From Variovorax sp. 770b2 (GTDB lineage Bacteria; Pseudomonadota; Gammaproteobacteria; Burkholderiales; Burkholderiaceae_C), in NCBI RefSeq assembly GCF_900115685.1, contig NZ_FOXJ01000010.1:1-64000 (forward strand): 64,000 nt of DNA, given 5' to 3'. Shown piece by piece: positions 13,499 through 56,201 of this stretch; position 1 is the first letter of the stretch, and each line of letters opens with the position of its first letter. The translations under genes were made by a program, and so were the position numbers. Below the pieces are notes generated by a model. That model was not told the origin of the DNA. It saw only the letters and a list, made by a program, of their open reading frames with translations, and did no database searches.

Positions 13499-16400
13499 AT
13501 GGCCCAGTTCTTCATCGACCGCCCCATCTTCGCGTGGGTGCTCTCCATCGTCATCATGCTCGCCGGGCTGATGGCCATCCGCACGCTGCCGCTGGAGCAG
13601 TACCCCGACATCGCCCCGCCGCGCGTGTCCATCAACGCCACCTACACCGGCGCCTCGGCCAAGACGGTCGAGGACTCGGTCACCCAGGTCATCGAGCAGC
13701 AGATGAAGGGGCTGGACAACCTGCTCTACATGCAGTCGACCAGCAACTCCTCGGGCGTGGCGCGCCTGTCGCTCACCTTCAACGCGGGCACCAACATCGA
13801 CGTGGCCCAGATGCAGGTGCAGAACAAGCTGCAGCAGGCCATGTCGCGCCTGCCGCAGCAGGTGCAGAGCCGGGGCGTGACCGTCACCAAGGGCGGCAAC
13901 GACTTTTTGATGATCGTCTCGATGTACTCGGGCGACGGCAGCGCCTCGGCGGTGGACGTGGGCGACTACATCAGCAGCAACCTGGTCGACGTGATCAGCC
14001 GCATCGACGGCGTGGGCGAGGTGCAGACGCTGGGCACCGGCTACGCCATGCGCCTGTGGCTGGACCCCGACAAGCTGCGCAAGTACGCGCTGATGCCCTC
14101 GGACGTCAACGCCGCCATCACCGCGCAGAACGCGCAAGTGTCGGCCGGCCAGCTGGGCGCGCTGCCGGCCGGTGCGCAGCAGCAGTTGAACGCCACCATC
14201 ACCGCGCGCAGCAAGCTGCAGACGGCCGAGCAGTTCGAGAACGTGGTGCTGCGCGCCACGCCCGACGGCGCCGTGGTGCGCCTGCGCGACGTGGCGCGCG
14301 TGGAACTGGGCGCCGAGAACCTCACGGTGCGTTCGCAGCTGGGCGGCCGTCCCGGCGCGGGCATGGGCGTGGTGCTGGCCGACGGCGCCAACGCGGTGCA
14401 GGTGGCCAAGGCCGTGAATGCCAAGGTGGCCGAGCTGCAGCCGCTCTTTCCCAATCAGCTGCAGACCTTCGTGAGCTACGACACCACGCCCTTCGTGAGC
14501 GCGTCGATCGACGAGGTGGTGAAGGCGCTGGCCGAGGCCATGCTGCTGGTCGTGCTGGTGATGTACATCTTTTTGCAGAACTTCCGCGCGACGCTGATTC
14601 CCGCGATCGCGGTGCCGGTGGTGCTGCTGGGCACCTTCGGCGTGCTCTCCATCGCCGGCTACTCGATCAACACGCTCACCATGTTCGGCATGGTGCTGGC
14701 CATCGGCCTCCTGGTGGACGATGCCATCGTGGTGGTGGAGAACGTCGAGCGCGTGATGCATGAAGAGGGCCTCTCGCCCAAGGAGGCCACGCGCAAGTCG
14801 ATGGCCGAGATCACGCCCGCGCTGGTGGGCATTGCGCTGGTGCTGTCGGCGGTGTTCATCCCGATGGCCTTCTTCGGCGGCTCGACCGGCGTGATCTACC
14901 GGCAGTTCTCGATCACCATCGTCTCGGCGATGGCGCTGTCGGTGTTCGTGGCGCTCACGCTCACGCCGGCGCTGTGCGCGACGCTCCTGAAGCCCGTCGC
15001 CAAGGGCCAGCATGCGGTGCCGCGCAAGGGCGTGCTGGGCGCGGTCGACCGCTTCTTCGCGGGCTTCAACCGCAACTTCGACAAGGGCGCCGACCGCTAC
15101 CAGGGCGTGGTGGGCGGCATCGTGCGGCGCGGCAAGCGCAGCATCGTGGTGTACCTGCTGATCGCGGCCGCGATGGCGGTGCTGTTCATGCGCCTGCCCA
15201 CCTCCTTCCTGCCCGACGAGGACCAGGCCTTCCTGCAGGTGCAGGTGACGCTGCCGCCGGGCGCCTCGGACGCGCGGCTGCAGCCGGTGGTCACGCAGAT
15301 GCAGGACTACTTCACCAGGCAGCCCGAGGTGGTGAGCGTGAACGTCATCACCGGGCAGAACGGCGACCAGAGTTCGGCGCGCGCCTTCGTGAAGCTCAAG
15401 GACTGGGCCGAGCGCGAAGGCGACGGGCAATCGGCCGCGGCGCTCGCGCGCCGCGCCAACAAGGACCTCTCCACCATCCGCGATGCGCGCGTGTTCGTGC
15501 TGCTGCCGCCGGCGGTGCGCGGCCTGGGTGCCAACGCGGGCTTCAACTTCCACCTGAAGGACATCAATGGCCTGGGCCACGACGCGCTGGTGAAGGCGCG
15601 CGACCAGGTCGTCGAGCTGCTCGGCAAGCGCTCCGACGTGGTGGTGAACGTGCGCAGCAACAACCTGGACGACACACCGCAGTTCGCGGTGGACATCGAC
15701 GACGCGCGCGCGGGTGCGGCCAGCCTGGCCACCGCCGACATCGACAGCACGCTCTCCAGCGCCATGGGCGGCACCTACATCAACGACTTCCTGGACAACG
15801 GGCGCGTCAAGCGCGTGTACATGCAGGGCGACACCGCCTTTCGCATGCTGCCCGCCGACATCGACCGCTGGAGCGTGCGCAACGGCCTGGGGCAGATGGT
15901 GTCGTTCCCGGCGTTCTCCAGCACACGCTGGACCTATGGCTCGCCGCAGCTGCAGCGCTACAACGGCAGCCCGAGCTACGAGTTCGTGGGCGACGCCGCG
16001 CCGGGCGTGAGCTCGGGCGATGCGATGGCCGCGGTGGACGAGGTGATGAAGCAGATGCCCGCCGGCATCGGCTACGAATGGACCGGCGCGTCGTTCCAGG
16101 AACGGCTCTCGGGCGCGCAGGCGCCGGTGCTCTATGCGATTTCGATCCTGTTCGTGTTCCTGTGCCTGGCCGCGCTCTACGAGAGCTGGTCGGTGCCGTT
16201 CTCGGTGATCCTGGTGGTGCCGCTGGGCATCGTGGGCGCGCTGCTGTTCACCAGCTTCCGGGGCCTGAGCAACGACGTGTATTTCCAGGTGGGCCTCCTG
16301 ACGACGGTGGGGCTCTCGTCGAAGAACGCGATCCTGATCGTGGAGTTCGCCAAGCAGTTGCAGGAGCAGGGCAAGGGCGTGATCGAGGCGACATTGGAGG

Positions 16401-16684
16401 CGGTGCGGCTGCGCCTGCGGCCTATCCTCATGACCTCGCTGGCCTTCGGCTTCGGCGTGTTGCCGCTGGCCATCGGCACCGGCGCGGGCGCGGGTGGCCG
16501 CCAGTCGATCGGCACCGCGGTGCTGGGCGGCATGGTGGTGGGCACGGCGCTGGGCATCTTCTTCGTGCCGCTGTTCTTCGCGCTGATCCGCGGATGGCTG
16601 GAGGGCAGGCGAAAGCCGGCACCGGCCAAGGCCGAAGCGACGGGTGCATTGCCGGCGCCCACCGCAGAACAGGGAGGCCACTGA
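13499..16684 (+). CDS. RND multidrug efflux pump, inner-membrane subunit (AcrB/MexB/HAE1 family)
   Basis: 1061 residues, full length. It starts MAQFFIDRPIFAWVLSIVIM as HAE1 pumps do. The proton-relay pair D407-D408 is present in GLLVDDAIVVVENVERVM, at the same numbering as E. coli AcrB. Two large periplasmic loops and 12 hydrophobic helices are visible, including the LTLTPALCATLLKP motif. It exports hydrophobic or amphiphilic compounds, driven by protons, as a trimer with the adaptor and OMF encoded on either side. Drug range cannot be read from sequence. Its stop overlaps the OMF start by one base (TGATG). Confidence 0.96.
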   Translation: MAQFFIDRPIFAWVLSIVIMLAGLMAIRTLPLEQYPDIAPPRVSINATYTGASAKTVEDSVTQVIEQQMKGLDNLLYMQSTSNSSGVARLSLTFNAGTNIDVAQMQVQNKLQQAMSRLPQQVQSRGVTVTKGGNDFLMIVSMYSGDGSASAVDVGDYISSNLVDVISRIDGVGEVQTLGTGYAMRLWLDPDKLRKYALMPSDVNAAITAQNAQVSAGQLGALPAGAQQQLNATITARSKLQTAEQFENVVLRATPDGAVVRLRDVARVELGAENLTVRSQLGGRPGAGMGVVLADGANAVQVAKAVNAKVAELQPLFPNQLQTFVSYDTTPFVSASIDEVVKALAEAMLLVVLVMYIFLQNFRATLIPAIAVPVVLLGTFGVLSIAGYSINTLTMFGMVLAIGLLVDDAIVVVENVERVMHEEGLSPKEATRKSMAEITPALVGIALVLSAVFIPMAFFGGSTGVIYRQFSITIVSAMALSVFVALTLTPALCATLLKPVAKGQHAVPRKGVLGAVDRFFAGFNRNFDKGADRYQGVVGGIVRRGKRSIVVYLLIAAAMAVLFMRLPTSFLPDEDQAFLQVQVTLPPGASDARLQPVVTQMQDYFTRQPEVVSVNVITGQNGDQSSARAFVKLKDWAEREGDGQSAAALARRANKDLSTIRDARVFVLLPPAVRGLGANAGFNFHLKDINGLGHDALVKARDQVVELLGKRSDVVVNVRSNNLDDTPQFAVDIDDARAGAASLATADIDSTLSSAMGGTYINDFLDNGRVKRVYMQGDTAFRMLPADIDRWSVRNGLGQMVSFPAFSSTRWTYGSPQLQRYNGSPSYEFVGDAAPGVSSGDAMAAVDEVMKQMPAGIGYEWTGASFQERLSGAQAPVLYAISILFVFLCLAALYESWSVPFSVILVVPLGIVGALLFTSFRGLSNDVYFQVGLLTTVGLSSKNAILIVEFAKQLQEQGKGVIEATLEAVRLRLRPILMTSLAFGFGVLPLAIGTGAGAGGRQSIGTAVLGGMVVGTALGIFFVPLFFALIRGWLEGRRKPAPAKAEATGALPAPTAEQGGH

Positions 16685-18132
16685 TGCGACGCACATCCCT
16701 CCCCCGCTTTCCGCTGCGCACGCTGGCCTGCGCGGCCATGGCTTCGGCCGTGCTCTCGGGGTGCGTCAACCTCGCGCCCGCGTATGAAACACCCGCCTCG
16801 CCGGTGCCGCAGTCCCTGCCCTCCGCAGGCGCAGCCGACGTGAAGGCGGCCACGCCGCTCGACGTCAGCTGGCGCGATTTCTTTATCGACAAACAACTGC
16901 AGGGCGTGATCGAACTCGCGCTCGCCAACAACCGCGACCTGCGCGTGGCGGCGCTCAACATCGAGCGCGCACGCGCCCAGTACGGCATCGCGCGCGCGGG
17001 CCTGTTCCCGACCGTCGAGGCCGGCGCGGGCGGCAGCCGCTCGCGCACGCCGGGCAGCCTCTCGACCAGCGGCGAGGCGCGCATCGCCTCGCAGTACAGC
17101 GCCGACCTGGGCATGACGGCCTACGAGCTCGACCTGTTCGGGCGCGTGCGCAACCTCGGCGAATCGGCGTTGCAGAGCTACTTCCAGACCGAGGAAATCC
17201 GGCGCAGCACGCAGATCAGCCTGGTGGCTTCCGTGGCCACGGCCTGGCTGCAGCTGGCCGCGGACGAGCAGCGCCTGGCGCTCGCGCGCAGCACGCTGGA
17301 GAGCCAGCGCAAGTCCTTCGACCTGATCCAGCGCAGCCACGCGCTGGGTTCGCAGTCGGGGCTGGCGCTCGCGCAGTCGCAAAGCACCGTCGAAGCCGCG
17401 CGGGCCGACGCCGCCGCGTTCGACAGCCTGGTGGAGCAGGACCGCAATGCGCTCACCCTGCTGGTGGGCACCACGCCGCCGGCCGAACTGCTGCCGACCA
17501 CGGCGACGACCGAGGCCGCGCAACTGCTCGTGCCACCGGCCGGCCTCTCGTCGAACGTGCTGCAGCAGCGCCCCGACGTGCGCGCCGCCGAGCACGCCCT
17601 GCGTGGAAGCAACGCCGACATCGGCGCGGCGCGCGCGGCCTTCTTTCCGCGCATCGCGCTCACGGCCTCGGCGGGCACGGCGAGCAGCACGCTCTCGGGC
17701 CTGTTCACGAGCGGCAGCAAGGCGTGGAGCTTCGCGCCTTCGATCAGCGTGCCGATCTTCGACGGCGGCGCGAACCGCTCGAACCTGAAGGTGGCCGAGG
17801 CGCAGCAGAAGATCCAGCTCGCGACCTACGAGAAGACCGTGCAGACGGCCTTCCGCGAAGTGGCCGATGCGCTGGCCGAGCGCCGCACGCTGGCCGAGCG
17901 GCTCGATGCGCAGCGCTCGCTGCTGGGCGCGACCTCGCGCAGCTTCGAGCTGTCGCAGTCGCTCTTCAGGAGCGGCGCAAGCAGCTTTCTCGATGTGCTG
18001 GATGCGCAGCGCGCCCACTACGCGGCGCAGCAGACGCTGATCGGCCTGCAGCTCACCGAGCAGACCAACCGCCTCACCATCTACAGGACGCTGGGCGGCG
18101 GCTGGAGCGAGGGCGCGGAAAAGAACGGCTAG
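16684..18132 (+). CDS. Outer-membrane efflux channel lipoprotein (NodT/OprM family)
   Basis: 482 residues. Signal peptide with lipobox LSGC at Cys27. Two repeats of the OEP fold are visible, each with long helical hairpins and short strands (first repeat ~60-270, second ~270-475). Conserved sites include NNRDLRVAALNIERARAQYG, the QQRPDVRAAEHALRGSNADI segment starting the second repeat, and the SLFRSGASSFLDVLDAQR end. It forms the trimeric TolC-like exit duct for the adjacent RND pump. Confidence 0.95.
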   Translation: MRRTSLPRFPLRTLACAAMASAVLSGCVNLAPAYETPASPVPQSLPSAGAADVKAATPLDVSWRDFFIDKQLQGVIELALANNRDLRVAALNIERARAQYGIARAGLFPTVEAGAGGSRSRTPGSLSTSGEARIASQYSADLGMTAYELDLFGRVRNLGESALQSYFQTEEIRRSTQISLVASVATAWLQLAADEQRLALARSTLESQRKSFDLIQRSHALGSQSGLALAQSQSTVEAARADAAAFDSLVEQDRNALTLLVGTTPPAELLPTTATTEAAQLLVPPAGLSSNVLQQRPDVRAAEHALRGSNADIGAARAAFFPRIALTASAGTASSTLSGLFTSGSKAWSFAPSISVPIFDGGANRSNLKVAEAQQKIQLATYEKTVQTAFREVADALAERRTLAERLDAQRSLLGATSRSFELSQSLFRSGASSFLDVLDAQRAHYAAQQTLIGLQLTEQTNRLTIYRTLGGGWSEGAEKNG

Positions 18133-51311: not shown

Positions 51312-54300
51312 TCAGGCGCGTGCCGGCGGGGTCGGTGCGGACGGCGCTGCGACGCGCCGGATCACGACAGCCGGCGGCATCGGTGGCGCGGGCTGTTGCA
51401 GCTTTGCCAATGCATGCACGATCTGCCAGAGCTGCATTCCGTTGGAGCCTTTCAGGAGCAACAGGTCGCCTTCGCCGATTGCATCGAACAGCGCGCGCTG
51501 GAGGTCGGCGAGCGTCTCAGGCGCATGCACGAGCGATGTCGGCGGCAAGGCCGCCGCGAGCCGGTCGCGCAGCCTGTGCATGTGCGGCCCCCGGAGGAAC
51601 ACCAGTGGAGGCCGGCATTGCACGATGTGCGCGACGAGCTCCTCGTGGTAGCGGGCGGCATCGCTGCCCAGCTCCAGCATGTCGCCGAGCACGAGCACCT
51701 TGCGGCCACCGGCACACGGCTCCCCGGCCATCATCGCCAAGGCCATCGTCATCGACAGCGGGTTCGCGTTGTAGGTCTCGTCGATGAGCCGGAAGCGCCG
51801 CTGCCCGAGCGAGAGTTCCAGGAGCTGGCCCCGCCCGGCCACCGCCGCGAACGATGCAAGCTGCGCCGGAACCTTCGCTTCGTCGAGCGCCAGGGCGCGC
51901 GCCACCGCGAAGCACACCAGGCTGTTGATGGCCATGTGCCGCCCTTTCGCACCCAGCATGTACGAGAAGGTCTGGCCGCGGTGGCTGGCCGTGACCTTGC
52001 CGGACATGGGGTCGTGCGCTTCGAGGCGGACGTCCGCGCAAGCCGCCTCTCCGTAGGTGAGCACCGTGAGCCGTCGCGCCCGAGCCCGTCTCAGCAGATA
52101 GTCGAAATGATCGGTGTCGGTGCACAGCACGGCGATGCCGCCGGGCCGCATGCCGTCGAAGATGTTCGCCTTGCGCCGCGCGATGTCCAGCACCGTCTGC
52201 CCTTTTCCCAGGTGCGACGGCGCGATGTTGGTGACGATGGCCAGGTCGGGGTCCACCAGCTTGATGTTCTGGAAATTCGGCGCGTTGATGCCGCTCACCG
52301 CGGTCTCCAGCACGACGAGGTCGGTGTCGGCCGAAACGTTCGCCAGCATGGCGAGCATGCCCACGCGCGAGTTGTAGTTGTCCAGCGTCGAAAAGACGCG
52401 ATGCGAAGCTGCGAACGCATGCGCCAGCATCCGGCACACGGAGGTCTTGCCGGCGCTGCCGGTGATGGCCACTACCCGGCCCCGCAGGCGTTGCCGCGCC
52501 GTGGCGCCCAGTTCGATCAAGGCGTGGATCGAATCGTCGACCATCAGCACCGGGAAGTCCGGGGCCAGTCCTTCCACGGGCTTGCTCAGCACCGCCCCAG
52601 CCAGGCGCCGCTGCATTCGCACAAGCCGCGCGCCCGCTTCCGCATCCATGCGAGTCGGCGCGGCCGCATAGCGCTCGTGCAATGCGCGCGTGGGTTGATC
52701 GGACACAACGAACAGTGCCGGTGCCGGCAACAGATCCAGGAACGTGCGGCCGCGCGCCACCGAGCGAACGAACCATCCGGGCGGCGGCTCGACCAGCCAG
52801 GTTCCGCCGGTAACAGCGGCCACCTGCGCGGCGTTCCATGTCTGGCCGGGCACGTCCGGCAGATCGGGCGGCAACTCGTCGGGTGCTGTCGCGCGGTAGC
52901 GCGGTGGCGGCGGATACGTCTCCACGGGCTGCGGCGTGACCTTGCCTCTGCGTGCTGTGAACGGGATCGGCGACCCCACCGACACGCCCGCGAAGTCCCC
53001 CGAGGTGCCAACCCAACCGATCACGAGCTGCAGTTGCGCGTCGTGCAGCGTATTGCCCGCTGGAGGACGCAGGCCGCAGTAATCGCGGTAGATCACGCCG
53101 GGCTGCCAACGGCTGGTGGGCCACATCCAGTCGCAGGGGTCGTGGTCCATGGCGGCGCCCCATGACGGCATCGTGGCGGGCGCGAGGGGCACCGCGCGGA
53201 TGTCCAGTCGCCAGTCGGTGTCGAGGGGCTGGTCGATCTGCGGGTCGATCTGCCAGAAGGTCTCGACGAACAGCAACTGACGGCCTTCGACGGCCTTCGG
53301 CGCCGCCTGCACGCCGAGCAGGCGAAGCGGCCCGAACGACAGGGGCGACGCGAGCTTCGCCTCGGACGGCACGGCGTCCACCCGCCATTCGTCGCGCGGC
53401 ACGGACACGGGCCGGATCGCCTCCGGCCGAACCGCCACGGAAGGCAGGTCCGGCAGCGCTTTGCGCGCCCTGGGCGGCGGCTGAAGCTCGAGCACGCACT
53501 GGCCCGTCGGCGCCATCGTGAAGGCCGATCCCAGGTCCGCGCATTTCTGCAGGAAGCGGCCCGCCGAGGCCGCGGCGCGTTCGCCTTCCAGCTGCACCGT
53601 CTGGCCGAAGCCCGTACCGATGGGCGTGAACATCACGCGCCGCACGCCGTCTTCGGTGAGCTGCAGCGAGAACACGCCGCCCTCGTCGTCGTCGCGCCGC
53701 ACGGCGTCGAACAGGAAGTCGCCGGCGTCGTGGACGATGGGCCGGTCCCTGTGGATCTCGACACCCTGCAACATGTGGGCCGATGCCCCCAGCACCGCGT
53801 CGGCACCGGCCTCGATGATGGCGTGGCCCACGGCGATCTCTTCGCCGCCGGGCGCGGGCTCCTGGTTCTTTCCCCAGTGCACGGCCACCAGCACCACGTG
53901 CGCCTGCGCGCGGACCGCGGCGATGCGGGGCGCGAGGCATTCGAGCCACGCGGCCGGCGCGGACAGCGGCAGGTACGCGCTCCCGCCCGTGGTCTCGCCG
54001 GCCGCGAAGCGCGGCTGGGTCGCATCGATGACGAACAGCGCCACGTTGAGCGCGCCCACGCGGCGCAGCACCGGCTTGAGCGCGGCTTCGAGCGTCGCGC
54101 CGGTGCCCGCGTGGCCGATGCCTGCGGCGTCCAGCAGGCTCGCCTGCTCCAGCAGCGCCTGGACACCGTAGTCGCCGCTGTGGTTGTTGGCGGTGGCGAC
54201 CACCTCGATGCCGGCCTCGGTAAGGACGCGCAGCATCTCCGGCCGCGCGCGGTAGTAGTAAGGCGTGGCCTCGTCTTTCTCCACGCCCTGCGCGCCGAGC

Positions 54301-56201
54301 GTGGAGACTACGCATTCGAGGTTGACGATGCGCAGGTCCGCTTCGGCCAGCACCGGCACTCCGCCAAGCACGGCAGCCAGGCCCACCTCCTGCGTGCGGT
54401 AGTGCTGCCGGCGGCCGAGGTTGACGTCGCCGCCCCAGGCCACCACGGGTCCATCGGCCGGCGGCAGCAGCCGGGGCGCGGGGGCATCGCCCACGCCCGG
54501 GGCGGTTGCATCGACATTGTCCTTTCCTTGCTGCAGCAGCTTCAGGTACGCCACGTAGCCCGAGAGGTAGTGCTCCACGTCGTCGATGCGCACGCGAAAG
54601 CTGTGGTGCTTGATGAAGAACGAGCCGGCCACGCGGTCGGGGTTGCGGAAGAACATCGCCAGCTCGGGCCAGAAGTGGCCGTTGGCGAGGTACCGCGCGC
54701 GGTGCTCCAGCGCGCGGTCGAACTTCTCGCGGTCCAGCCCCTCCAGCAGCGGGCGCAGCGCCGGGTCGGCCTGGATGCGCAGCACCATCTCGCGCGCGGC
54801 CATCATCAACTCCAGCAGCGTCGGGAAGGTGGTGATGCGCTCCAGCACGAAGTCCAGGTAACCGGCCACGTTCTGCAGCCCGAACCGGTAGTAGCGCGTC
54901 TCGGGCCGGTAGCGCGTGAGCTCGTTCACGCAGTAGCTCAGCCAGTGGTCGTGCGCCTCCCAGTGCCTGGCGGCGATGAAATGGTCGAAGGCTTTTTCCA
55001 CCACCGAGAGCCAGCGCTCGTCGCGCGTGAGCCCATAGAGGCGCATCAGCCCGAAGGCGGCCTCGCCGTCGTAGTAGATGACGCGAAACGCATCCTTGAT
55101 GTCCAGCTTGGGGAAATTGAGCACGTGCACGAAGCGCCCGCTCTTCTGGTCCTGCATGGCGCGGATGCCGAGCGCGAGCTGCTCCATGAGGGTCATGTAC
55201 TGCCGGTCGCCGGTGAGCTCGGTGTACTTCACCAGCGCGAGCAGGCAGACCGCATTGCCGCCGAGCTTGACCTCGTTGCCCACGTCCACCAGCAGCGCCG
55301 CCTGTGTGCCGTCGGGCAGCGGCACCTGGCGGATCAGGCGCTGCGTGAGGATGCCCAGCGAGCGGTCGATGGCCGCCTTCTGCGTGGCGCTGCGCGTGAG
55401 CTCCCAGGCCTCCAGCATCGCGTAGGTGGTGCTGGCGTGGCGCAGGGTGTTGTAGGTGGGAATGGCGCGGTCGAAGCAGGGAAACCAGCCGTAGTGGAAT
55501 TCGCCGGTGGGCTTGACCTGTTCGGCGAGATAGTCGCTCGCCGAATCGATCAGCTGGCGGACCTGCCGCGCATTCCAGTGGTCCAGCCGGCGGTAGCCCG
55601 CGGCCTGCCCTTCGGCGGTGATCGGCCACGCGCCCTCTGCATCGACGTACACGGCGCGGGTGGTGAAGCACCAGACGGGCGCGGCATCGTCCGCGGGAAA
55701 GTCGATCTCGGCGCCGAAGCGGCGCTTGGCATGCAGGCGCAGGTTGGTGGGGTTGGGCAGCGCGTGCTCCACCTCGCCGCTGTAGAGGACTGCGGCGCCC
55801 TGCATCTCCTGCGCGAGCAGCGCGTGCTTGAAGCCTGCATCGAATGCGATGCCGAGGTTGAAATAGTTGCGCTTGGTTTGCGCCAACTTCGCTTTCAACT
55901 CGCCCCAACTCATGGCCGTGACCGTGTCGACGATTTCCGCGCGCAGGCGCTCGGGCAGCCGGTCGCCGCGCTTTGCCTGGACGGTGGCCGCATCGGCGGC
56001 CCGCTGCCATGCGGCTTCGATGTCGGGTCCGCGTCCGGCCACCACGCGCGCGCGGCTCTCGCCTTCGCCCATGGCGAAGAACACCACGCATCCCGCCTCC
56101 GCCGTGGCGGGCGACGCAGGGGGCAGAACGCCCTCGACATCCGCCAGGGCAAGCCTGGCGCGGTTCAACAGATCGGCGAGGGGATTCGGGTCGTGCGTCA
56201 T
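51312..56201 (-). CDS. Large fusion protein: alpha-helical domain, CapA domain and MurF-like ligase
   Basis: 1629 residues in one open frame. About 1-190: mixed domain of unknown type. About 190-570: helical repeats resembling an alpha/alpha-toroid (HYGWFPCFDRAIPTYNTLRH, YYDGEAAFGLMRLYGLTRDE, HDHWLSYCVNELTRY). About 585-870: CapA/PgsA metallophosphatase-like domain with GGDVN at Asp592 and ANNHSGDYG at His674, then HWGKN. About 900-1110: beta-rich linker. About 1115-1610: complete MurF-like ligase, with an N-terminal UDP-binding-like region, P-loop ITGSAGKTS at Lys1252, DETYNANPLSMTMAL and LLKGSNGMQLWQIV. No signal peptide is seen, so CapA would be cytosolic. Possible role: building or attaching an amide-linked polymer. 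The reaction is not known to me. It is convergent with the TPM gene, 10 bases apart. Confidence 0.88.
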   Translation of the reverse strand: MTHDPNPLADLLNRARLALADVEGVLPPASPATAEAGCVVFFAMGEGESRARVVAGRGPDIEAAWQRAADAATVQAKRGDRLPERLRAEIVDTVTAMSWGELKAKLAQTKRNYFNLGIAFDAGFKHALLAQEMQGAAVLYSGEVEHALPNPTNLRLHAKRRFGAEIDFPADDAAPVWCFTTRAVYVDAEGAWPITAEGQAAGYRRLDHWNARQVRQLIDSASDYLAEQVKPTGEFHYGWFPCFDRAIPTYNTLRHASTTYAMLEAWELTRSATQKAAIDRSLGILTQRLIRQVPLPDGTQAALLVDVGNEVKLGGNAVCLLALVKYTELTGDRQYMTLMEQLALGIRAMQDQKSGRFVHVLNFPKLDIKDAFRVIYYDGEAAFGLMRLYGLTRDERWLSVVEKAFDHFIAARHWEAHDHWLSYCVNELTRYRPETRYYRFGLQNVAGYLDFVLERITTFPTLLELMMAAREMVLRIQADPALRPLLEGLDREKFDRALEHRARYLANGHFWPELAMFFRNPDRVAGSFFIKHHSFRVRIDDVEHYLSGYVAYLKLLQQGKDNVDATAPGVGDAPAPRLLPPADGPVVAWGGDVNLGRRQHYRTQEVGLAAVLGGVPVLAEADLRIVNLECVVSTLGAQGVEKDEATPYYYRARPEMLRVLTEAGIEVVATANNHSGDYGVQALLEQASLLDAAGIGHAGTGATLEAALKPVLRRVGALNVALFVIDATQPRFAAGETTGGSAYLPLSAPAAWLECLAPRIAAVRAQAHVVLVAVHWGKNQEPAPGGEEIAVGHAIIEAGADAVLGASAHMLQGVEIHRDRPIVHDAGDFLFDAVRRDDDEGGVFSLQLTEDGVRRVMFTPIGTGFGQTVQLEGERAAASAGRFLQKCADLGSAFTMAPTGQCVLELQPPPRARKALPDLPSVAVRPEAIRPVSVPRDEWRVDAVPSEAKLASPLSFGPLRLLGVQAAPKAVEGRQLLFVETFWQIDPQIDQPLDTDWRLDIRAVPLAPATMPSWGAAMDHDPCDWMWPTSRWQPGVIYRDYCGLRPPAGNTLHDAQLQLVIGWVGTSGDFAGVSVGSPIPFTARRGKVTPQPVETYPPPPRYRATAPDELPPDLPDVPGQTWNAAQVAAVTGGTWLVEPPPGWFVRSVARGRTFLDLLPAPALFVVSDQPTRALHERYAAAPTRMDAEAGARLVRMQRRLAGAVLSKPVEGLAPDFPVLMVDDSIHALIELGATARQRLRGRVVAITGSAGKTSVCRMLAHAFAASHRVFSTLDNYNSRVGMLAMLANVSADTDLVVLETAVSGINAPNFQNIKLVDPDLAIVTNIAPSHLGKGQTVLDIARRKANIFDGMRPGGIAVLCTDTDHFDYLLRRARARRLTVLTYGEAACADVRLEAHDPMSGKVTASHRGQTFSYMLGAKGRHMAINSLVCFAVARALALDEAKVPAQLASFAAVAGRGQLLELSLGQRRFRLIDETYNANPLSMTMALAMMAGEPCAGGRKVLVLGDMLELGSDAARYHEELVAHIVQCRPPLVFLRGPHMHRLRDRLAAALPPTSLVHAPETLADLQRALFDAIGEGDLLLLKGSNGMQLWQIVHALAKLQQPAPPMPPAVVIRRVAAPSAPTPPARA

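Follow-up and report, generated by a model that had tools for sequence, protein, structure and literature searches.

A four-module Variovorax protein with a CapA module and a MurF-like ligase, from a family linked to adhesins with Ala-Asp and Ser-Asp tracts

Long tracts in which alanine or serine alternates with aspartate are present in adhesins of clinical bacteria and of those from soil or associated with plants, and the explained modification found for them is the glycosylation of serine in staphylococci. There, according to PMC8561734, SdgB adds N-acetylglucosamine to serines of Ser-Asp repeats. Cyanophycin synthetase acts on aspartate side chains, to which its Mur-like M domain adds arginine (PMC9262961), and a further type of peptide modification is that by MslH, which epimerises the C-terminal Trp of its peptide via Asp11/His295 and His88/Asp91, with Glu44, Asn87, His259 and His261 as metal ligands (PMC10406935). 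All three bear on a 1629-residue protein encoded on the minus strand, at 51312-56201, of a 64,000-nucleotide stretch of Variovorax sp. 770b2 (assembly GCF_900115685.1, contig NZ_FOXJ01000010.1, positions 1 to 64,000; 'the window' below is this whole stretch), in which a CapA module and a MurF-like ligase follow an N-terminal domain, here termed N. The genetic tie of the N family to adhesins with such XD tracts is strong and spans two phyla, and that the two belong together is highly probable. With slightly better than an even chance, the protein is a cytoplasmic maturation enzyme for adhesins with long (Ala/Ser-Asp)n tracts, its ligase amidating the aspartates.

The gene is recognized from its open reading frame (ORF), its domains and relatives of the same order; it begins with ATG and has no internal stop. 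In the order of the chain, and all on the minus strand, its modules are N1 (residues 1-207, 55581-56201), the alpha/beta leading part of the N domain in an AlphaFold2 model; N2 (208-563, 54513-55580), by fold match an (alpha/alpha)6 barrel of the sugar 2-epimerase/GH76 type; the CapA module (582-908, 53478-54458), by PGA_cap and fold match a calcineurin-like fold nearest MslH; a mid module (930-1110, 52872-53414), a beta-rich linker domain by its predicted model and by co-occurrence with CapA; and the MurF-like ligase (1117-1601, 51399-52853), from fold match, residue tables and TIGR01143. Pfam places PGA_cap at residues 587-832 (E 7e-54, 183.4 bits with a gathering score of 27), Mur_ligase_M at 1246-1434 (2.9e-32) and Mur_ligase_C at 1468-1586 (7.8e-11), and has no family above cut-off for residues 1-580 and 850-1240. 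The original prediction, made from the letters of the window, was of one chain joining an alpha-helical domain, CapA and a MurF-like ligase; the fusion is borne out, the word 'alpha-helical' only in part, as residues 1-207 are mixed alpha/beta in the model. The active-site motifs that it quoted are where they should be (GGDVN 590-594, NNHSGDYG 672-679, ITGSAGKTS 1246-1254, NANPLSM 1478-1484), and the domain order recurs across genomes, N+CapA+mid+Mur being found in 31 proteins among the loci compared, this one included.

A sequencing error joining two genes was entertained and is ruled out by relatives whose open frames encode the same order. The nearest of these with the same ligase subtype, L182 and L183 (80% and 72% identity), have open frames of 1647 and 1661 codons and the identical order; L184-L186 are without Mur. 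In comparison with L182 and L183, ratios of nonsynonymous to synonymous substitution are 0.15-0.26 for the barrel, CapA and Mur modules, i.e. purifying selection, with 0.37 and 0.55 for N1 and 0.43 and 0.41 for mid. Because relatives share the order and the barrel, CapA and Mur modules are under purifying selection, the fusion is not a sequencing artefact. Inspection by eye discerned no signal peptide at the start of the chain.

Relatives were sought with an alignment of three N domains, which gave 264 pattern matches in genome contigs, 214 of them encoding a relative; the best 80 (L041-L120) were kept, 28 of them Variovorax loci and 52 from elsewhere, including Enterobacterales, Pseudomonas, Microbulbifer, Methylobacter, alphaproteobacteria and others. 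The family is modular, with N alone, N+Mur, N+CapA+mid, N+CapA+mid+Mur and N+GT4 (GT, glycosyltransferase) all represented, and elsewhere in its loci separate Mur, Mur+CapA or CapA+mid+GT genes are near N. The source genome itself (assembly G000, 7.45 Mb in 16 contigs) has two further members, a paralogue on contig C9 (60%, same order) and a C5-encoded protein that is N+Mur without CapA. The N-terminal domain had been described as having no evident function; neither Pfam nor NCBIfam provides a family at cut-off for it with 56 members searched. The domain, and the barrel N2 within it, is nevertheless what stays constant at the core of the family.

The AlphaFold2 model of N, from an alignment of 56 sequences, has a mean predicted local distance difference test score (pLDDT) of 94.7. 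The best match of N2 is cellobiose 2-epimerase (5zig; VIA-align Z 26.4, root-mean-square deviation (rmsd) 2.7, 321 residues aligned), and its barrel also matches GH76 mannanase (Z 24.6); fold matches to the model span residues 208-563 only. At the sequence level a few of the 56 members have weak matches to GH88 (10/56), GH127, GH76 and C5-epimerase, EpiA is weakly matched by 2/56 (E up to 0.1) with no match for the 1629-residue ORF, and a profile of N set against solved structures gave weak, chance-like matches only. Many charged residues in the barrel are invariant in the 56 sequences, and as several are basic they would suit an acidic substrate.

For the link to adhesins, a tract was taken as an open frame with at least six uninterrupted XD pairs, X being mostly Ala or Ser. 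Such a tract, with hundreds of pairs in many cases, is present in 39 of the 52 loci outside Variovorax, and 48 of the 52 have a tract, a type I secretion system (T1SS) gene or a LapD/LapG-type gene. The neighbors, named from Pfam matches of one representative per cluster, include genes for the type I secretion ATP-binding cassette (ABC) protein, HlyD, TolC-type proteins, Peptidase_C93 (LapG type) and LapD-type proteins. No tract was present in 20 arbitrary stretches of 19.9 kb (398 kb; 19 from four operon-bearing genomes of the genus and one from G107), or in 129 kb of MurF/CapA control loci. The four adhesins read fully or nearly so (L156, L040, L119, L171) have a hydrophobic segment near the N-terminus and then the tract.

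Within the genus, the operon order adhesin(tract)-[N+Mur]-ABC-HlyD-OEP is found in 21/21 loci, the C5 copy of the source genome and those of 20 other genomes. The class-level sample, with N in 2 of 274 genomes (the source genome included), is too sparse for a co-occurrence test, and so a genus sample of 61 genomes was used. The adhesin N-terminus is present in 30 of the 33 genomes that have N and in none of the 28 that do not (Fisher p 2.6e-14, relatedness uncorrected). The three N-positive genomes that yielded no adhesin match, G577, G592 and G598, have assemblies in 240 to 1310 contigs, and a contig of G592 carries a tract of 38 pairs despite the lack of a match. The source genome has two tract adhesins, one split across the ends of C14 and C5 and the other at C5:104904. 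(In L036, 1-4000 is an adhesin frame containing a masked run of the base symbol N, and the contig edge is inside an Ala-Asp tract.)

Plasmid-borne members take the family into Gram-positive bacteria. A tblastn search of plasmid records yielded 54, including 15 from Staphylococcus, 6 from Enterococcus and 2 from Listeria. Of 17 annotated regions chosen by the author (16 of the 54 plasmid records together with one of three E. coli plasmids), 15, all but L177 and L231, have a tract, among them wall-anchored adhesins of Staphylococcus, Listeria and Enterococcus. The arrangements are instructive: in S. simulans an SdrD-like LPXTG adhesin, N and a Mur ligase; in S. epidermidis SdrF, N and a glycosyltransferase; in Listeria an LPXTG protein, almost all of whose 145 pairs are AD, and then N; and in Nitratireductor adhesin, TolC, ABC, HlyD, N and a gene annotated murF. 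Other settings include L177 (5535-13434), where an A. baumannii N gene, annotated poly alpha-glucosyltransferase, is directly after that for a type I secreted immunoglobulin-repeat protein without an XD tract in the stretch read, and L224, where a Sulfitobacter N+Mur gene follows a condensation-domain gene and precedes those for a BapA-prefix adhesin and a polyketide synthase.

Tract composition tends to vary with the partner of N. The glycosyltransferase beside N in L040 is SdgB-like, sharing a PDB sequence group with 7vfk (E 6e-52). Among loci with a tract, the 23 that have a ligase are mostly Ala-rich in the tract and the 9 that have a glycosyltransferase mostly Ser-rich (p 0.003 by Mann-Whitney; p 8e-5 by Fisher with the division at half serine; the loci are not phylogenetically independent). 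A strict code, in which ligase means Ala and glycosyltransferase means Ser, was considered and set aside in favor of a tendency, given L072, L075, L093 and 3/21 operons. Among the plasmids, two from staphylococci (L176, L226) have a short annotated ligase, as if in pieces, and a Ser-rich tract (0.70); three with a long ligase have Ala-rich tracts (L175 0.84, L227 0.60, L229 0.74); and L228, with no ligase annotated, has a tract with Ala at 0.67.

The ligase has MurF as its nearest NCBIfam, though at 256.9 bits it does not reach the TIGR01143 cut-off of 288.6, and its predicted fold matches MurF 4qf5 with Z 34.7 (rmsd 3.5, 437 aligned). K1252 (Walker), E1299, H1330, K1344, D1474, N1478 and D1507 are the same as in 8/8 canonical MurF sequences, so that the view of its catalytic residues as intact is upheld at the key ATP-site and catalytic positions. 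The first-domain DSR motif that is present in all eight, and which we take to have a uridine-binding role, is replaced (D1168 Q1169 P1170), and other conserved MurF positions, e.g. the GMNH stretch, also differ. A role apart from canonical MurF had been anticipated should a separate murF exist, and contig C13 of the same genome does encode a canonical MurE-MurF fusion (349.5 bits, above the TIGR01143 cut-off); the 1629-residue protein is therefore neither the sole nor the canonical MurF of the cell.

What relates the stand-alone protein to the adhesin is foremost a difference between ligase copies. K1252, E1299, K1344 and D1474 are retained in 31/31 N+CapA+mid+Mur proteins. In the N+Mur proteins of the genus operon K1252, H1330 and K1344 are all lost (29/29), and to judge from these substitutions the adhesin-operon ligase should not bind ATP normally. 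The Walker lysine is retained in all 11 N+Mur proteins outside the genus-operon set, nine of which are from outside the genus in loci with a tract and/or a T1SS gene. An altered ligase in the operon, with an intact one in stand-alone proteins, is the best reason to tie the 1629-residue protein to the adhesin.

The CapA module in its predicted fold matches MslH (8gq9) with Z 37.0, rmsd 2.5 and 314 aligned, and its score with the MslH equivalog model NF038314 is 76.5 bits, below the cut-off of 700. Seven of eight MslH metal or catalytic positions are kept (E629, N673, H674, D677, H775, H809 and D592, the last assigned by the position of the GGDVN motif, as the printed alignment begins after MslH Asp11), both His/Asp dyads are retained, and the seven are invariant in 18 sequences. 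From the modeled fold, an epimerase-like role on peptide is the best guess, and it may instead be a phosphoesterase. The mid module has no Pfam match and accompanies CapA in 28/28 of the mid-carrying genes in the family loci compared; its model is of moderate confidence (pLDDT 44-84 in 10-residue blocks, mean ~66), and Mur and CapA structures take up the fold-match lists for the CapA-mid-Mur model.

Put together, the family probably decorates Ala-Asp/Ser-Asp stretches chemically, in a manner not yet described. The N module, with its alpha/beta part and sugar-epimerase-type barrel, would recognize and process the tract, either by itself or in company with a transferase, of which there are two kinds. 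An SdgB-type glycosyltransferase partner would glycosylate tract serines. The MurF-like ligase would activate, at the expense of ATP, the side-chain carboxylates of aspartates in the tract, to which an amine, an amino acid or amino sugar, would be attached; in an Ala-Asp tract the Asp carboxylate is the sole reactive side chain, and it is what a Mur ligase could activate. The CapA module would most likely be an MslH-like metal-dependent epimerase of peptide residues, with the tract or the added group as its target. In the source genome the 1629-residue protein is proposed to act in trans on the two AD-tract adhesins, since the adhesin-operon ligase has lost its ATP site. We infer from this combination the tract as substrate, the epimerization, the kind of amine and the working of this particular copy on adhesins, with differing assurance: that the protein acts on the tract is likely, whereas formation of an Asp-side-chain amide, by analogy with cyanophycin synthetase, falls somewhat short of an even chance. 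The amide chemistry foreseen in the original prediction is plausible. A broader and more tentative proposal is of a cross-phylum system in which ribosomally made Ala-Asp tracts of adhesins would be converted into an amide-decorated polymer that may contain D-residues, in effect a surface-borne 'ribosomally templated cyanophycin'. Its makers would be a Mur ligase, an epimerase of the MslH type and a new barrel enzyme, and the Sdg system, which glycosylates serines, would be an alternative transferase branch of the same family.

Several observations weigh against the protein being a tract-amidating maturation enzyme. The window has no tract and the 1629-residue ORF is not beside an adhesin; the 28 Variovorax loci among the best 80 (some on short contigs) and eight further stand-alone loci are likewise without a tract in the stretch covered. 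Gln takes the place of H1330 and Arg that of D1507 in 27 of the 31 stand-alone N+CapA+mid+Mur ligases, and the MurF-like residues are only in the 1629-residue ORF, L116, L182 and L183. Of the four metal ligands of MslH, the CapA module lacks one, H261, and has G777 in its place. The regions L177 (A. baumannii) and L231 (Variovorax) lack a tract, and the relationship of partner to composition has exceptions in L093 (ligase, all Ser), 3/21 genus operons (Ser-rich), and L072 and L075 (glycosyltransferase, Ala-rich). Genome G598 has an intact N+Mur ligase, but on an 11-kb contig without adhesin match, tract or T1SS gene. An intact stand-alone ligase is present in only 20 of the 31 genus genomes with an operon copy, the remaining 11 having N+CapA+mid without Mur (3), N only (4), no stand-alone copy (2) or contig edges or breaks (2). 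That tally led to rejection of an active ligase as an absolute requirement of the operon, and because of it the ligase is seen as an optional layer on the N core.

The sugar-enzyme fold of the barrel, with the weak GH88, GH127, GH76 and C5-epimerase matches in some members and an SdgB-like partner in one locus, permits a glycan-centered explanation: barrel and glycosyltransferases would build or trim a tract glycan, Mur would attach an amino acid or peptide at a carboxylate or amine that belongs to the glycan and not at Asp itself, and CapA would epimerize, or hydrolyze a bond of, the appendage. It gains from alpha/beta hydrolase and aldose-epimerase genes that follow 8/8 stand-alone genes fetched with flanks (L182-L189), though not the 1629-residue ORF, profile searches finding neither in the 64-kb window. 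However, an Ala-Asp tract has hardly any hydroxyl side chains to which a glycan could be O-linked, and tracts of this kind accompany N in loci where no glycosyltransferase was found, by profile in L111, L112 and L115 and by annotation in L178 of Listeria, whose tract has serine at 0.01. This explanation is rather unlikely. It is distinctly improbable that N alone is active, with CapA and Mur as structural or regulatory passengers swapped among family members. In the Listeria and Enterococcus regions read, the N gene beside the adhesin has no ligase or glycosyltransferase annotated within 8 kb, operon ligases devoid of their ATP site are nonetheless retained as full domains in 29/29, and several genomes show no intact ligase of the family, as that idea would have it; mere passengers would sit poorly with the four residues kept in 31/31 stand-alone ligases, the Walker lysine kept in 11/11 N+Mur proteins beyond the operon set and the purifying selection on Mur and CapA.

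The original prediction had itself favored a machine for a free polymer or wall precursor, CapA and Mur making a poly-glutamate-like polymer or a modified UDP-MurNAc peptide, and the scores with PGA_cap and the MurF family are what would be expected of it. It now seems very improbable, given the lost DSR motif, the sub-cut-off MurF score, the canonical murEF on C13, the lack of a signal peptide discernible by eye and the linkage of the family to adhesins. The significance that was attached to the neighboring PBP1C and OmpA genes does not survive either, and they were rejected as functional partners: the PBP1C gene is convergent to the 1629-residue ORF, and near family genes PBP1C is found in 0/36 Variovorax and 0/52 other loci and OmpA in 7/36 and 0/52 (five of the 36 are from contigs of less than 14 kb, and L057 is counted twice, as L186 also). 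The annotated recurrent neighbor clusters are of genes other than CapB and CapC, at which no search was aimed.

With maturation of tract adhesins still the preferred reading, other features of the surroundings can be listed briefly. A LysR gene is conserved upstream in 21/36 Variovorax loci. Genes of N+Mur or N+CapA type repeatedly have the alpha/beta hydrolase gene as a neighbor (L182-L189, L098, L111, L112, L115, L118, L180, L191), and in Variovorax the aldose-1-epimerase gene that follows the hydrolase gene has a front part of ~270 residues without assignment. Elsewhere in the window, on the plus strand at 14764-18129, is a 1122-codon open frame with a TolC/OEP-like stretch (profile score 87). 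The barrel segment of the 1629-residue ORF, residues ~104-552 (54546-55892), is ~95-99% identical in DNA to that of the C9 paralogue (L037, L038), with 98.5% of bases shared over residues 187-552 and sharp borders, beyond which identity is 53-65% 5' of the segment and 49% 3' of it; the pattern points to recent gene conversion or module exchange. Both ends of C9 (454 kb) are inside the paralogue and overlap inexactly by ~570 bases at 98.9%, so that either the replicon is circular or the assembly was interrupted at the shared repeat.

The wider interest is that an enzyme family shared by Firmicutes and Proteobacteria, with its genes beside tracts in both, leads one to expect a modification of the tracts that would escape proteomics searches. 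It also gives a candidate function to proteins labeled as hypothetical or as poly(glycerol-phosphate) alpha-glucosyltransferase. The division of labor, with the ATP site lost in the operon ligase and kept in the stand-alone one, makes the prediction testable in a soil bacterium. Among the matches listed from open-license papers there was no report on Ala-Asp tract modification or on an N/CapA/Mur family.

Of the known systems, that of LapA, LapD and LapG is similar in the ABC, HlyD, OEP, Peptidase_C93 and LapD-type genes around many N-family members; to our knowledge, N, Mur, CapA and glycosyltransferase genes are not part of the Lap set, and a further difference is the place of the tract, which in the four adhesins read comes after the hydrophobic segment near the N-terminus. 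MurF is alike in fold and in ATP and catalytic motifs, and unlike in that the ORF is below the TIGR01143 cut-off and has lost DSR. MslH shares the CapA-type calcineurin-like fold, but here CapA is fused to N and Mur and His261 has become Gly. SdgA/SdgB provide the parallel of genes beside dipeptide-Asp tract adhesins, with one family glycosyltransferase partner being SdgB-like and the S. epidermidis N gene standing between sdrF and a glycosyltransferase gene; they differ in that many N-family tracts are Ala-Asp with little or no serine, and in that the Gram-negatives of the family use type I secretion and not sortase anchoring. The main text of the SdgB paper (PMC8561734) is without the terms Mur ligase and alanine-aspartate. 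The closest chemical counterpart is cyanophycin synthetase CphA1, whose M domain is a Mur-like ATP-dependent ligase acting on poly-Asp side chains (PMC9262961) and whose structure 7lgq is matched by the ligase model at Z 24.5 over 341 residues. In contrast to CphA1, no ATP-grasp domain was found in the 1629-residue ORF, which scores 34.5 bits with TIGR02068 against a cut-off of 850, and the presumed acceptor of the N-family ligase is ribosomally made.

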